Below, piece by piece: positions 31,838 through 36,110 of a stretch of DNA of 38,586 nucleotides. The DNA lies in contig PXFI01000312.1 of assembly GCA_003564295.1 (NCBI GenBank), forward strand, positions 1 through 38,586, read 5' to 3'. The notes below the pieces were generated by a model. It searched no databases, was not told the origin of the DNA, and was given only the letters and a program-made list of their open reading frames with translations. The position numbers and the translations under genes were made by a program. Every line of letters starts with the position of its first letter. Position 1 is the first letter of the stretch. Source of the stretch: Gemmatimonadota bacterium. GTDB lineage: Bacteria; Gemmatimonadota; Gemmatimonadetes; Longimicrobiales; Gaopeijiaceae.

Positions 31838-31904
31838 GGTCCGCGTCGGTTACGGGGGCATAGGGCCGAAAACGTGAACACTCTTCGATGTCAGGGGGCC
31901 ATGT

Positions 31905-32200
31905 TCCTGATCAGGTGGAACTTGGGGCGACCGACGATCCGGGTCAAGCTCTTGTGTCACAACGATTGCTGTGCTTTCGGGCGCCGGAGCACCGTCCTGA
32001 GCCCCCGGCCCGCGGCGGGTGGCCAACACGATGGCCTCCATGGGCGAACAGCCGTTCTTGGACCTCTTGGTGGCTGAGGTGTTTTCCGATCACTCGGACC
32101 ACGCCTCCGGCCCCACCTGCAGCTCCTGGGCCAGGAAGGTCATCTCCATGGCCGTGGTGGCGAGGCAGGGCTCATCGTGGCCCAGGGTCCCGGGCAGGCG
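31905..32200 (-). pseudogene. Decayed C-terminal fragment of an amidohydrolase
   Basis: One minus-strand frame reads TTAMEMTFLAQELQ, hits a stop at 32090-32092, then continues in the same frame with GCSPMEAIVLATRRG. The last block is typical of imidazolonepropionase-like amidohydrolases (G-x-x-P-M-E-A-I-x-x-A-T-R). About 60 bases further, another frame gives SLTRIVGRPKFHLIRN, which resembles the family's closing strand. An in-frame stop plus a frameshift indicate a dead gene. The assignment rests mainly on the PMEAI block, so it is tentative. Confidence 0.4.
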
Positions 32201-32344
32201 GAGGCTCCCGGACGCCTGGTCCGGGACCATCTCACAACAGGAATCGACCCAGCGTTGAAGGCCAAGCCTGCTCCTCACCGCCTCCAGATACTGGGCTACC
32301 CTTCAGATGCCCGCACCACAGTCTCCGCACCGACGGACCTCTCC

Positions 32345-32640
32345 TTACTGGCCGTCCTCCTCCTGGGAACCGCGCCAACCCTCTATGCGAAACACCGTCA
32401 CCGCATTCACCCCGAGATCGTTGCACTGGGTGGCCAGGATCCGGCCTTGCCGAATGTCCAATACCTGCACCCGGGGAGGAAGGGACACCGAGGCGAGCCA
32501 TGCCCCCGTAGGGGAGAACACGTCGAAGTGCTCCGTAGTCCTGTAGTCGAGGGATAAGGCACCGACCCAGGCGAAAGTCGGCCCGGCTGGGTCCCATCCC
32601 AGCCTCCGGATCCGTACCCACCGGGTGTCCCGATTCAATG
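32345..32640 (-). pseudogene. C-terminal fragment of a beta-propeller protein
   Basis: The minus-strand frame ending at 32345 contains HFDVFSPTGAWLASVSLPP followed by VQVLDIRQGRILATQCNDLG and VNAVTVFRIEG. This is the pattern of the last blade of six-bladed propeller lipoproteins (F-D-x-x-G-x-x-L-x-x-V-x-L-P). Only this end is present in frame; further upstream the frame lacks propeller character and no start or signal peptide is found. It probably belongs to the same former gene as the fragment at 32940-33200. Confidence 0.5.
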
Positions 32641-32860
32641 GAGAGGGGAAGAGTAGGCTACCGGCAGCAGTCCTGCGACACAAATCCTGGCAGGGGAGCA
32701 CCGCTGGCCACCGTGTTCGCCCTGCCCGGTCCGGGGGTCCGGGGCAAGAGTCTTTAGGCGTACCGGCAACCAGGAGTCGGGGGGGCTTCGCCCAGTCTGG
32801 AGAACCCCGGGGCCGGTTCCCCGAAGTGCCTATTTTCCAACAACATCGGAGAAGTTATGA

Positions 32861-32901
32861 TGGGGGTTATCGAGACTTCTGATAGAACGCGGCGACGTTC
32901 T
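32861..32901. repeat. 41-bp direct repeat, left copy
   Basis: This copy matches 34802-34842 at 38 of 41 positions in the same orientation. The shared core is ACTTCTGATAGAACGCGGCG. It overlaps an inverted repeat in which CTTCTGATAGAA (from 32877) faces TTCTATCATAAG (ending at 32921) with one mismatch. The repeat lies between two propeller-gene fragments, as if an element had inserted there. The two copies are 1941 bases apart and bracket the nucleotidyltransferase module. Confidence 0.75.
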
Positions 32902-32939
32902 TCGCCACCTTCTATCATAAGCTTGGAATGCGGGCCGTT

Positions 32940-33200
32940 GGAGAGTCTGGCAGCCTTCACCGGCCAAGAGCTCACCCCCCACCACGGGATCGGACCGAAC
33001 CCCCCACCCCTCGAGACCCCCTACGGTGCCGATGACCAGATCCTTCGGCAGGGACACCTGGGCCCAGGGGTCGCCCTGAGGATCCAGGCTCATCCAGCGA
33101 ACGTCGGGGACTCCGCCCCCACAGAGAGTGCGTCGGCACGGATGGAATAGGCGAGGCCCGTGCTCGCAGGGGGGGAGATCTTGGCCAAAATCGCGAGAGG
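32940..33200 (-). pseudogene. Frameshifted fragment of a beta-propeller protein
   Basis: A minus-strand frame reads VPDVRWMSLDPQGDPWAQVS followed by LPKDLVIGTVGG, a propeller-blade pattern. In an adjacent frame just upstream, ILAKISPPASTGLAYSIRAD looks like the preceding strand, so a frameshift near 33110-33130 is likely. No intact start or signal peptide is visible. Together with the fragment at 32345-32640 it suggests one propeller gene broken by insertion and decay. Confidence 0.4.
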
Positions 33201-33249
33201 TCGGTATTGTGTAGAAGGAGGATCGAGGACTTGAGCGGAGGCCGTAGGT

Positions 33250-33484
33250 ATGAACAACCAACATCTTTGGCCGCCCTCGGTGGAGGACCTCGTCCGGGAG
33301 GAGTACCCAACTCCCAAACCGATTGTGGCCAGCTCAGTCGCTTTGAACGCGGCGCCTCCGCCGGCAGCGCGGTTCGGTCTCTCCTGCGTGCCGACCAGCG
33401 GATTTACCGCGGGTTCGTTGACCGGTTGGGTGGAGCGAGGAGGTCCAGGTAGCGTGGGTCAGACTGGGTAGACTACGGAACGAA
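33250..33484 (+). pseudogene. Frameshifted small gene just upstream of the nucleotidyltransferase
   Basis: A plus-strand ATG at 33250 opens a frame beginning MNNQHLWPPSVEDLVREEYP and PKPIVASSVALNA, then becomes proline-rich. An adjacent frame continues in protein-like fashion with AVRSLLRADQRIYRGFVDRL and stops at 33452. The third frame gives EVQVAWVRLGRLRNEL and runs straight into the nucleotidyltransferase ATG. Two frameshifts in about 230 bases suggest a decayed small gene at the place where the antitoxin lies in AbiE-type pairs. No domain was recognised, so the role is inferred from position only. Confidence 0.4.
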
Positions 33485-33487
33485 CTC

Positions 33488-34261
33488 ATGACCGAGCGAG
33501 AACGCGAGGAATTCGAACAGGTTATTGCGGAGGGCCGTGCCCTCCAGCGACACCTGCCGTGGCTGGACATGGTCGCTGTCGGCGGCACGGCGGCAGCGCT
33601 GCACGCACACCATCGGTACTCGCTCGACACGGACCATGTCACGCCTCTTCTGCGCCGTCAGTACGAACTGGTCAAGGAAGAACTCCGGACGTGGGAGGGA
33701 TGGCACCTCAAGCGAGAGCGCCGTCCGTTCGTCCTCCTTGGTGAGCGGCACGGTGTAGACCTCGGGATTCGGCAGCTCCGACGCGTAATTTCGCTTGAGC
33801 GGGAGACGGTCGGGGACCTGGTCATCCCCACGGCGGAGGAGACGCTTCGGATCAAAGCGTTTCTCTGCACGGATCGGCAAGCGCTTCGGGACTACCTCGA
33901 CCTGGCGGCGTTGACAGATACGGTCGGCGACGAGGGTGCTCTTCAGGCATTGCGGTTCCTCAACGTCCTCTACCCGGGGTCAGGCAACCAGACATGTATC
34001 ACGCGCCTGGCCGAGGTGACGAGCCAAGAGCCGGTCGACCTCGACCAACACGACCTGAGGACCTATCGCGGGATTCAGGCCCCCTATGACGATTGGCGTT
34101 ATATTGAAAGTCGATGCCGTGACCTGGCCCGGCGGTTGCTCGTATTGGAACTCGAAGGCGAAGTCGCGACCGACGTGGAGGAGTTCCTTGCAACAGCCGA
34201 CGCGCAGGATCTACGTCAACAAGGCGACCAGATCCAAGGTAATGGCATAGGTCCCCGATAA
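33488..34261 (+). CDS. AbiEii-like nucleotidyltransferase
   Basis: This 257-residue cytoplasmic protein resembles the AbiEii/AbiGii nucleotidyltransferases used as toxins in toxin-antitoxin and phage-abortive systems. The nucleotidyltransferase signature is at residues 31-50: VGGTAAALHA followed by HRYSLDTDH, giving the G-G and S-x-D-x-D metal and nucleotide site. Further family-like blocks are ERHGVDLGIRQLRR, VIPTAEETLRIKAFL and RQALRDYLDLAALTD, the last being the R-x-x-x-D-x-x-D-L-A pattern of the helical region. A toxic activity such as transferring nucleotides to tRNA is known for some relatives but is not shown here. The upstream frame is open back to 33422, but no start codon exists there, so ATG at 33488 is used. 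The gene is one of very few plus-strand genes in the window and lies between two copies of a direct repeat. Confidence 0.75.
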   Translation: MTEREREEFEQVIAEGRALQRHLPWLDMVAVGGTAAALHAHHRYSLDTDHVTPLLRRQYELVKEELRTWEGWHLKRERRPFVLLGERHGVDLGIRQLRRVISLERETVGDLVIPTAEETLRIKAFLCTDRQALRDYLDLAALTDTVGDEGALQALRFLNVLYPGSGNQTCITRLAEVTSQEPVDLDQHDLRTYRGIQAPYDDWRYIESRCRDLARRLLVLELEGEVATDVEEFLATADAQDLRQQGDQIQGNGIGPR

Positions 34262-34264
34262 CCG

Positions 34265-34531
34265 ATGAAGCAGCCGCGCATCACATCCACCCGCGGGTTT
34301 CTCGACCTCGTCGACGTGTTGGGTCGTGGAGGCACCGACGAGTGGCGCCTTCTGTATCGGCGCGCTGAACACGACGTCGCCGTGCGTGAGCAAATCCGTG
34401 CGGCGCTCCCGCTCGTGGATCCGGAGATCGGCTCCGGGCGCGAACTCTGGTCCTTCCTCCTCGACCACCTCGAACAGCGCGAGGCGCGACGCTCCTCTTC
34501 GACCCAGAGCGGCCGATCCCGCGCCGGCTGA
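34265..34531 (+). CDS. Small protein paired with the nucleotidyltransferase, function unknown
   Basis: This 88-residue frame begins three bases after the nucleotidyltransferase stop codon, so the two are almost certainly co-translated. Residues 1-70 look like a compact helical protein (TSTRGFLDLVDVLGRGGTDE, EWRLLYRRAEHDVAVREQIR, ELWSFLLDHLEQ). The last 15 residues are serine- and arginine-rich and may be unstructured. No family was recognised. Tight linkage to a probable toxin makes an antitoxin or accessory role possible, but antitoxins of AbiE systems usually lie upstream and carry a winged helix, which is not seen here. Confidence 0.6.
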   Translation: MKQPRITSTRGFLDLVDVLGRGGTDEWRLLYRRAEHDVAVREQIRAALPLVDPEIGSGRELWSFLLDHLEQREARRSSSTQSGRSRAG

Positions 34532-34621
34532 CGCAGCGACGAGCGGCGGCGCCAGCCGCTCCGTTCCGTCTCCACCGCACGCTACCGCAAGCCCTCGCCA
34601 CGCTGTAGGCCTAAGAGCCGA

Positions 34622-34657
34622 ATCTGCCCGGTGGGGGAAGCTTCCCAACCGGACAGA
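34622..34657. repeat. Long near-perfect palindrome centred on AAGCTT
   Basis: The arm ATCTGCCCGGTGGGGGAAG and its partner CTTCCCAACCGGACAGAT pair along about 18 positions, with one extra base and two mismatches. It lies about 95 bases after the small-protein stop. No T-run follows, so it is not a standard terminator. It could mark the end of a mobile element or be a protein-binding site. Confidence 0.6.
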
Positions 34658-34728
34658 TCTGAGTAGAAAACCGAGACCCTTGTCTCACCGCTAGGTGATA
34701 AGCTATCTCAAATCAAGAAGTTAGGTAC

Positions 34729-34784
34729 AATTACGATAGAATCTGCACAGAATTACGATAGACGACTCTCGTGAATTACGAGAG
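34729..34784. repeat. Three iteron-like direct repeats plus a perfect inverted repeat
   Basis: AATTACGATAGA occurs at 34729-34740 and again at 34751-34762, and AATTACGAGAG at 34774-34784. The spacing is 22 and 23 bases, about two helical turns, as for a protein binding one DNA face. The third copy is part of a perfect palindrome, CTCTCGT-GAATT-ACGAGAG (34766-34784). Shared GATAGA strings link these iterons to the 41-bp repeats. Units are too short and too few for a CRISPR array. Confidence 0.6.
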
Positions 34785-34801
34785 CTCACACAAACACCAC
34801 G

Positions 34802-34842
34802 TGGGGGTTGTCGAAACTTCTGATAGAACGCGGCGCCGTTCT
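34802..34842. repeat. 41-bp direct repeat, right copy
   Basis: This matches 32861-32901 at 38 of 41 positions. Its right part is a perfect palindrome, GATAGAACG-CGGCGC-CGTTCTATC (34822-34845), which is imperfect in the left copy. It ends about 65 bases before the pilC stop codon. Confidence 0.75.
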
Positions 34843-34907
34843 ATCCCTGGGCGTGGCGAACCACACCCGCCACCACGAATCACCTGGCCTTCAGGCAGGA
34901 GCCCTCT

Positions 34908-36110
34908 CTACTGCACCGCACTGATCATGTCGAAGATCGGCAGATACATGGCCACGATCATGCCACCCACCACCACACCCAGGAACACGATCATGATGGG
35001 CTCCATGGCTGACAGGAGGGCCTCCACGGCCGCGTCCACCTCGTCGTCGTAGAAGTCGGCGATCTTGGAAAGCATCTCGTCCAGGCCGCCGGTCTGCTCC
35101 CCCACGTTGATCATCTGGACCACCATTGGGGGGAAGACGCCTGACTCCTTCAGGGGCCCGGCGATGGTCTCACCCCCGGCGATGGAGGCCCGGGAACCCA
35201 TGACGGCGTCGTGGATGACCCGGTTCCCCGCCGTCTTCGCCGTGATCTCGAGCCCTTCCAGGATGGAGACACCCGAGGAAACCAGCGTGCCCAGGGTCCG
35301 GGTGAACCGGGCCACGGCAGCCTTCCGCTGGAGGTCCCCCAGGATGGGCAGGTTCAGCAGGATCCTGTCGAAGAAGAGCCTTCCATCTGGGGTGGCATAT
35401 ACCTGCCTCAACAGGAAGGCAGCCGCCACGATCCCAAGGCCCACGGCCCACCAATAAACCTGGAAGAACCCCGAGAGGTCGATGACGATCCGCGTGGGGA
35501 GGGGCAGGGGGATGCCCGCCGATTCGAACATGCCCTGGAAGGTGGGGATCACGAAGATGAGCAGGACCACCACCGCCAGCACGGCCACGGTGACGATCAC
35601 CCCGGGGTAGATCATGGCCCCTTTGATCTTCCTCGCCAGGGCATCGTTCTTTTCCAAGAACGTGGCCAGCCGCAGAAGGATGGTGTCCAGGATACCACCG
35701 GCCTCACCGGCAGCCACCATGTTCACGAAAAGCTCCGTGAAGATCTTGGGGTGCTTCTTCAAGGAGTCCGCCAGCGTGTTACCCGACTCCACGTCGTAGA
35801 GGACCTCCTGGATCACCTTCCTGAGGGACTGGTTCTCCGTCTGCTCCGCCAGGATGTCCAGGCTCTGCACCAGAGGCAGGCCCGAGTTGATCATGGTGGC
35901 GAACTGGCGGGCGAAGATGACGATGTCCCGGGTGCTGACGCCAGTGCCGAAGGTGATGTTGATCCCGGCATCCTTCTGACGCACCGAGACTGGAATCATC
36001 TTCTGTCGGTGCAGGTACGACAGCACCTCGTCTTTGGTGTTGACCTGCATCTCGCCGGACTGGATGTCGCCTCCGGCGGCGGGTCTGGCGCTGTAGACGA
36101 ACTTTGGCAT
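34908..36110 (-). CDS. pilC: Type IV pilus inner-membrane platform protein PilC
   Basis: This 400-residue inner-membrane protein is the assembly platform on which the PilB and PilT motors act. It has an N-terminal cytoplasmic segment (KFVYSARPAAGGDIQSGEM) and two T2SSF domains. Each contains the family pattern: IVIFARQFATMINSGLPLVQ with LFVNMVAAGEAGGILD, and VARFTRTLGTLVSSGVSILE with MVVQMINVGEQTGGLDEML. Hydrophobic segments lie near residues 170-195 and 220-240 and at the C-terminus (PIMIVFLGVVVGGMIVAMYL). It starts 18 bases after the pilT stop, so the genes form one minus-strand unit pilB-pilT-pilC. The related GspF of type II secretion is the alternative, but the adjacent PilT favours pili. 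Confidence 0.94.
   Translation of the reverse strand: MPKFVYSARPAAGGDIQSGEMQVNTKDEVLSYLHRQKMIPVSVRQKDAGINITFGTGVSTRDIVIFARQFATMINSGLPLVQSLDILAEQTENQSLRKVIQEVLYDVESGNTLADSLKKHPKIFTELFVNMVAAGEAGGILDTILLRLATFLEKNDALARKIKGAMIYPGVIVTVAVLAVVVLLIFVIPTFQGMFESAGIPLPLPTRIVIDLSGFFQVYWWAVGLGIVAAAFLLRQVYATPDGRLFFDRILLNLPILGDLQRKAAVARFTRTLGTLVSSGVSILEGLEITAKTAGNRVIHDAVMGSRASIAGGETIAGPLKESGVFPPMVVQMINVGEQTGGLDEMLSKIADFYDDEVDAAVEALLSAMEPIMIVFLGVVVGGMIVAMYLPIFDMISAVQ

Follow-up and report, generated by a model that had tools for sequence, protein, structure and literature searches.

A nucleotidyltransferase gene pair between direct repeats in a Gemmatimonadota bacterium: a plausible scar of insertion with long target duplication

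How chromosomal toxin-antitoxin (TA) pairs enter genomes without a surrounding mobile element is an open question. Restriction-modification (RM) systems are known to insert with long, variable target duplications, on the order of 100 bp (PMC3874152; PMC3031569), a process traced to Nobusato 2000 and Furuta 2010 as far as these two papers relate it. For TA modules, no report of insertion with target duplication was found in the literature covered, which took in few papers behind subscriptions and not the primary one on RM systems. In a contig of a Gemmatimonadota bacterium, a nucleotidyltransferase (NTase) gene and a small companion gene lie between two similar sequences. The whole stretch analysed, 38,586 nucleotides long, is called the window below, and the features of the locus are given in their order along it.

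32861..32901, plus strand: copy A, left 41-bp direct repeat; likeness goes on to about 32919 past a 12-nt indel
32908..33222, minus strand: degraded remnant of the C-terminal part of a six-bladed beta-propeller gene, between A and the gene pair
33488..34261, plus strand: P0001, nucleotidyltransferase of 257 aa, MenT/AbiEii-like toxin candidate with catalytic-type motifs GGT...DxD kept
34265..34531, plus strand: P0002, small helical partner of 88 aa, antitoxin candidate, adjoining the NTase in most relatives
34727..34784, plus strand: triple direct repeats AATTACGATAGA / AATTACGATAGA / AATTACGAGAG with 22-23 nt spacing, directly behind pilC
34802..34842, plus strand: copy B, right 41-bp repeat; likeness goes on to about 34846
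34908..36110, minus strand: pilC-like type II/IV secretion inner-membrane protein (PF00482, E 2.7e-67), the right-flank host gene

Taken by itself, P0001 gives no match to any Pfam, NCBIfam or PADLOC model, in which it differs from the MenAT and AbiE systems, and its role as toxin is that of a candidate. Of eight proteins from its family, six do match PF08843 (AbiEii). The confident AlphaFold model of P0001 (pLDDT 92.9) has MenT1, from the MenAT1 toxin-antitoxin pair of M. tuberculosis, as its top PDB match (E 2.7e-6), and the NTase fold is found together with the GG...DxD motif that marks the MenT/AbiEii type of NTase TA systems. The likeness to MenAT and AbiE thus consists of the fold and of a small partner encoded next to it. 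The partner itself sets the pair apart from those systems, being a short four-helix protein of no recognised antitoxin family or fold; the fold search with P0002 gave no PDB match at E 0.001. It adjoins the NTase, on the upstream or the downstream side, in 81 of the 89 loci examined. Because family members match AbiEii, the model resembles MenT1 and the helical partner is kept adjacent, P0001 and P0002 are most simply taken as a TA-like module with predicted toxicity.

The NTase is patchily distributed: 295 genomes represent the class, and 11 of them carry it. Across many phyla, 342 relatives were found. Within a related genus some genomes carry the module and others lack it at one and the same site, which lies between a stop codon and the promoter that follows; no flanking repeat accompanies it in this genus, where empty sites are available. 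The palindrome ACTTTGTTCGG...CCGAACAAAGT beside the relatives' modules also occurs in the empty sites and was therefore assigned to the promoter of the neighbour. Eight plasmid records carry the NTase, and the five of them that were inspected have no strong flanking repeats; a search of phage records with one relative as query gave no NTase match. Two further observations concern the surroundings of these genes. At four loci (L129, L124, L125 and L016) a conserved operator-like palindrome ACTTTGTTCGGYNACCGAACAAAGT lies behind a TTGACA box, and the neighbours of the gene downstream of it vary in the presence of the NTase pair. In genome G039 (L005:1100-2600) the nearest homologue of the NTase, at 66%, is missing the N-terminal part; it continues into a frame that resembles an ATPase, and next comes a gene of minimal nucleotidyltransferase-like type.

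The repeats A and B, first pointed out in an earlier note made from the sequence alone, are 38/41 identical and in the same orientation, and both their coordinates and their identity were confirmed. They form the best ungapped pair of 41-mers in the window, the corresponding value in ten dinucleotide-preserving shuffles being 26-29/41. If a 12-nt indel, TTCTTCGCCACC, between two TTCT is allowed, the similarity extends to TATC. The note had advised searching the genome and its relatives for the sequence, and it proved not to be dispersed: the 20-bp core occurs, with at most three mismatches, in only two places of the 3.34-Mb draft genome (89% complete), namely A and B, and 395 genomes of the phylum hold none except apparent chance matches inside coding sequence. 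A dispersed repeat family was accordingly rejected, the matches outside this genome (G000; up to two mismatches) resembling chance occurrences in coding sequence, most of which read FYQ-type codons. The palindrome ascribed to each copy needs to be redrawn. GATAGAACG itself is not palindromic; it forms, in B, one arm of a perfect 9-6-9 inverted repeat (34822-34845, GATAGAACG-CGGCGC-CGTTCTATC), and in A the inverted arms are reduced to 6 bp, with an alternative hairpin TGATAGAA...TTCTATCA possible. An Rfam search of the window gave no match.

Copy B lies about 66 bp past the end of pilC, which is encoded on the minus strand. Copy A was said to sit inside a broken propeller gene; it lies instead some 45 bp past the point where the degraded minus-strand fragment is inferred to end, the assignment of which has a weak basis (39% over 38 residues to a protein of G037). 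The wider region 31880-33260 holds gene remains: two propeller C-termini, and pieces resembling the ends of an amidohydrolase and of a prolyl oligopeptidase that this genome encodes. The gene pair is separated from A by 588 bp and from B by 271 bp. The triple repeat has a 79% match beside pilC in a distant genome of another family (G102, L257:1501-1570) and is absent from closer relatives; it is probably DNA of the pilC side rather than part of the inserted pair. Arrays of similar layout and other motif occupy the same place behind pilC in G006, G015 and G001, with no recognised transposase gene nearby. An apparently duplicated pilC end in G019 turned out to be an overlap of contig ends. The pilC flanks of the relatives are not syntenic with the window.

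More can be learned from the relatives of the module, whose left and right flanks were compared for direct repeats. Most of them have no flanking repeat. At four clean and independent loci the left copy corresponds to the 3' terminal part of the gene that precedes the module, a different gene in each: the C-terminus and stop codon of a PASTA-domain-like gene at L102 (116/121 bp), the C-terminus and stop codon of the upstream gene at L100 (110/134), and the 3' end of the preceding host gene at L074 (96/116) and at L047 (131/142; L050 is the same site). At these four loci the repeat is thus target-derived and locus-specific, an origin that is putative for the repeat of the window. Their right copies start from -14 to +38 nt relative to the last stop codon of the module. 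In L102 and L074 the differences between the copies lean to third codon positions, which implies that one of them at least has a history of coding evolution. L070, L117 and L121, with dispersed repeats, and L080, with a palindromic one, were left out of the clean cases.

Enrichment was judged by repeats scoring at least 25 whose right copy lies at -60 to +100 of the end of the unit. Such repeats accompany 10 of 81 modules, as against 9 of 270 among the remaining ORFs at these loci (one-sided Fisher p 0.004) and none of 27 pfkB control genes; without three dispersed-repeat loci the count is 7/81 (p 0.05), so that the excess over control ORFs is modest. The strongest match among the controls is itself a TA pair, parDE (L053:470-808), flanked by a duplication of 160/183 bp; this duplication corresponds to the start of a gene that, read from its translation, is tyrosine-recombinase-like. 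ParE was used as a second test family and gave four matches, three attC-like by eye and one a G+C-rich repeat, and for this reason adds no support for target duplication. In our judgement, not a computed value, long target duplication is likely to have taken place at L102, L100, L074 and L047. The suggestion that the module is a mobile, inserted unit is thus supported by its patchy occurrence, the many phyla that hold relatives, its presence and absence at one site and the target 3'-end repeats of the relatives; its site-specific part is taken up below.

We propose that the NTase and its helical partner may form an addiction module that spreads horizontally and would enter chromosomes by insertion with a long and variable duplication of the target. 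The landing site would usually be the 3' end of a gene, single before insertion and double after it, and since its DNA is present twice afterwards, the host gene would be kept whole. Such a layout would be expected from a staggered break with fill-in, or from integration of a circle by a single crossover, and addiction might then hold the module in place. Applied to the window, B would be the native copy on the pilC side and A the decayed copy on the far side, which may since have lost an internal stretch, the whole unit measuring about 1.9 kb.

This proposal resembles what is known of RM systems in that an addiction-type gene pair, with no transposase, lies between direct repeats that derive from the target and vary in length, on the order of 100 bp. 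It differs in that the unit is an NTase TA-like pair found across phyla, and the repeat-flanked cases are known from occupied sites alone. Long and variable flanking repeats are found in the window (38/41) as in the relatives (96/116 to 131/142). Against the scar counts that the repeats of the window do not abut the module: its right copy lies 271 bp away (the left 588), as compared with -14 to +38 nt at L102, L100, L074 and L047, and the propeller fragment intervenes between A and the genes. The lack of flanking repeats in most relatives and in the related genus with empty sites also counts against it, as does the modest excess over control ORFs. Moreover, as the triple repeat also stands beside pilC in G102, the sequence to the left of B seems to belong natively with pilC, and a simple 41-bp target is then insufficient. 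Either the duplicated target was longer, reaching to about 34.69 kb, and A suffered a deletion, or A and B are copies of a small element with an origin of its own. A leftward extension of A is suggested by comparison with shuffles in one setting (9/1000 for 32761-32860) and not in others (91/1000 for 32801-32860; 377/1000 for 32816-32860), and is not robust. By our own estimate, which is not computed, A and B stand an even chance of being the decayed scar of an insertion of the pair with long target duplication.

The main rival reads A and B as a small hairpin-forming element (a 3'-flank hairpin, a MITE-like piece or an old segmental duplication) behind two minus-strand genes, flanking the pair by coincidence. 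Both copies do fold as hairpins, each lies just 3' of a minus-strand gene at the distances given above, and neither abuts the module. An element of this kind is at odds with the occurrence of only two copies in the draft and of nothing but chance-like coding matches in the 395 genomes, and a terminator scan found no T-run terminator at A or B. We hold it to be possible, but doubtful.

Three further readings would replace the scar of a target duplication by the remains of another vehicle. An IS-like element could have carried the module, its ends surviving as the AATTACGATAGA repeats beside B and as TTCTATCATAA beside A. The motif indeed recurs beside pilC in a distant genome and not in closer relatives, and multiple short repeats next to B resemble IS21-type ends. 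No transposase is found; in several genomes pilC is followed by solo arrays with different motifs, likewise with no recognised transposase in the vicinity, and TTCTATCATAA is already accounted for as the pairing strand in the hairpin of A. Carriage by such an element is therefore improbable.

Still less credit can be given to A and B as attL and attR of a tyrosine-recombinase element, with the 9-6-9 inverted repeat of B as its core site. The 9-bp inverted arms around a 6-bp spacer, the same-orientation repeats at both ends and the direct repeats beside B, reminiscent of arm sites, all fit such a site. Yet no recombinase is recognised between A and B, the genes recognised there being the NTase pair; the core symmetry is broken in A; and no site matching the core was found in the phylum or in viral contigs. 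The proposed insertions share with phage and ICE attachment a duplicated 3' end of the target gene that leaves the host gene whole. Unlike phage and ICE attachment, no integrase was found, the target differs by locus and the unit measures only 1.0-1.9 kb. The site-specific insertion offered in the earlier note is not supported by these findings, as the repeat differs from locus to locus, no related palindrome was found in the phylum or the viral contigs, and no attC motif is present. The last reading, an integron-type cassette with the repeats as attC, is very unlikely: ParE toxin genes of the same phylum (L165, L175, L187) are by eye flanked by attC-like repeats, but the neighbourhood of the pair yielded no integrase gene and on inspection A and B carry GTTATCG / GTTGTCG instead of the GTTRRRY end of RYYYAAC...GTTRRRY.

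The repeats of the window are plausibly, by analogy, the worn scar of a known kind of insertion, the parallel being good but incomplete. It is conceivable, though we would lean against it, that chromosomal TA-like pairs in general behave as free-standing units that, without transposase or integrase, duplicate the 3' end of the gene ahead, and that this holds for addiction modules (RM, NTase-TA, parDE) across phyla. Several independent copies with target-derived repeats offer insertion scars that can be compared with one another, and would extend the mode of mobility described for RM systems to TA-like modules.
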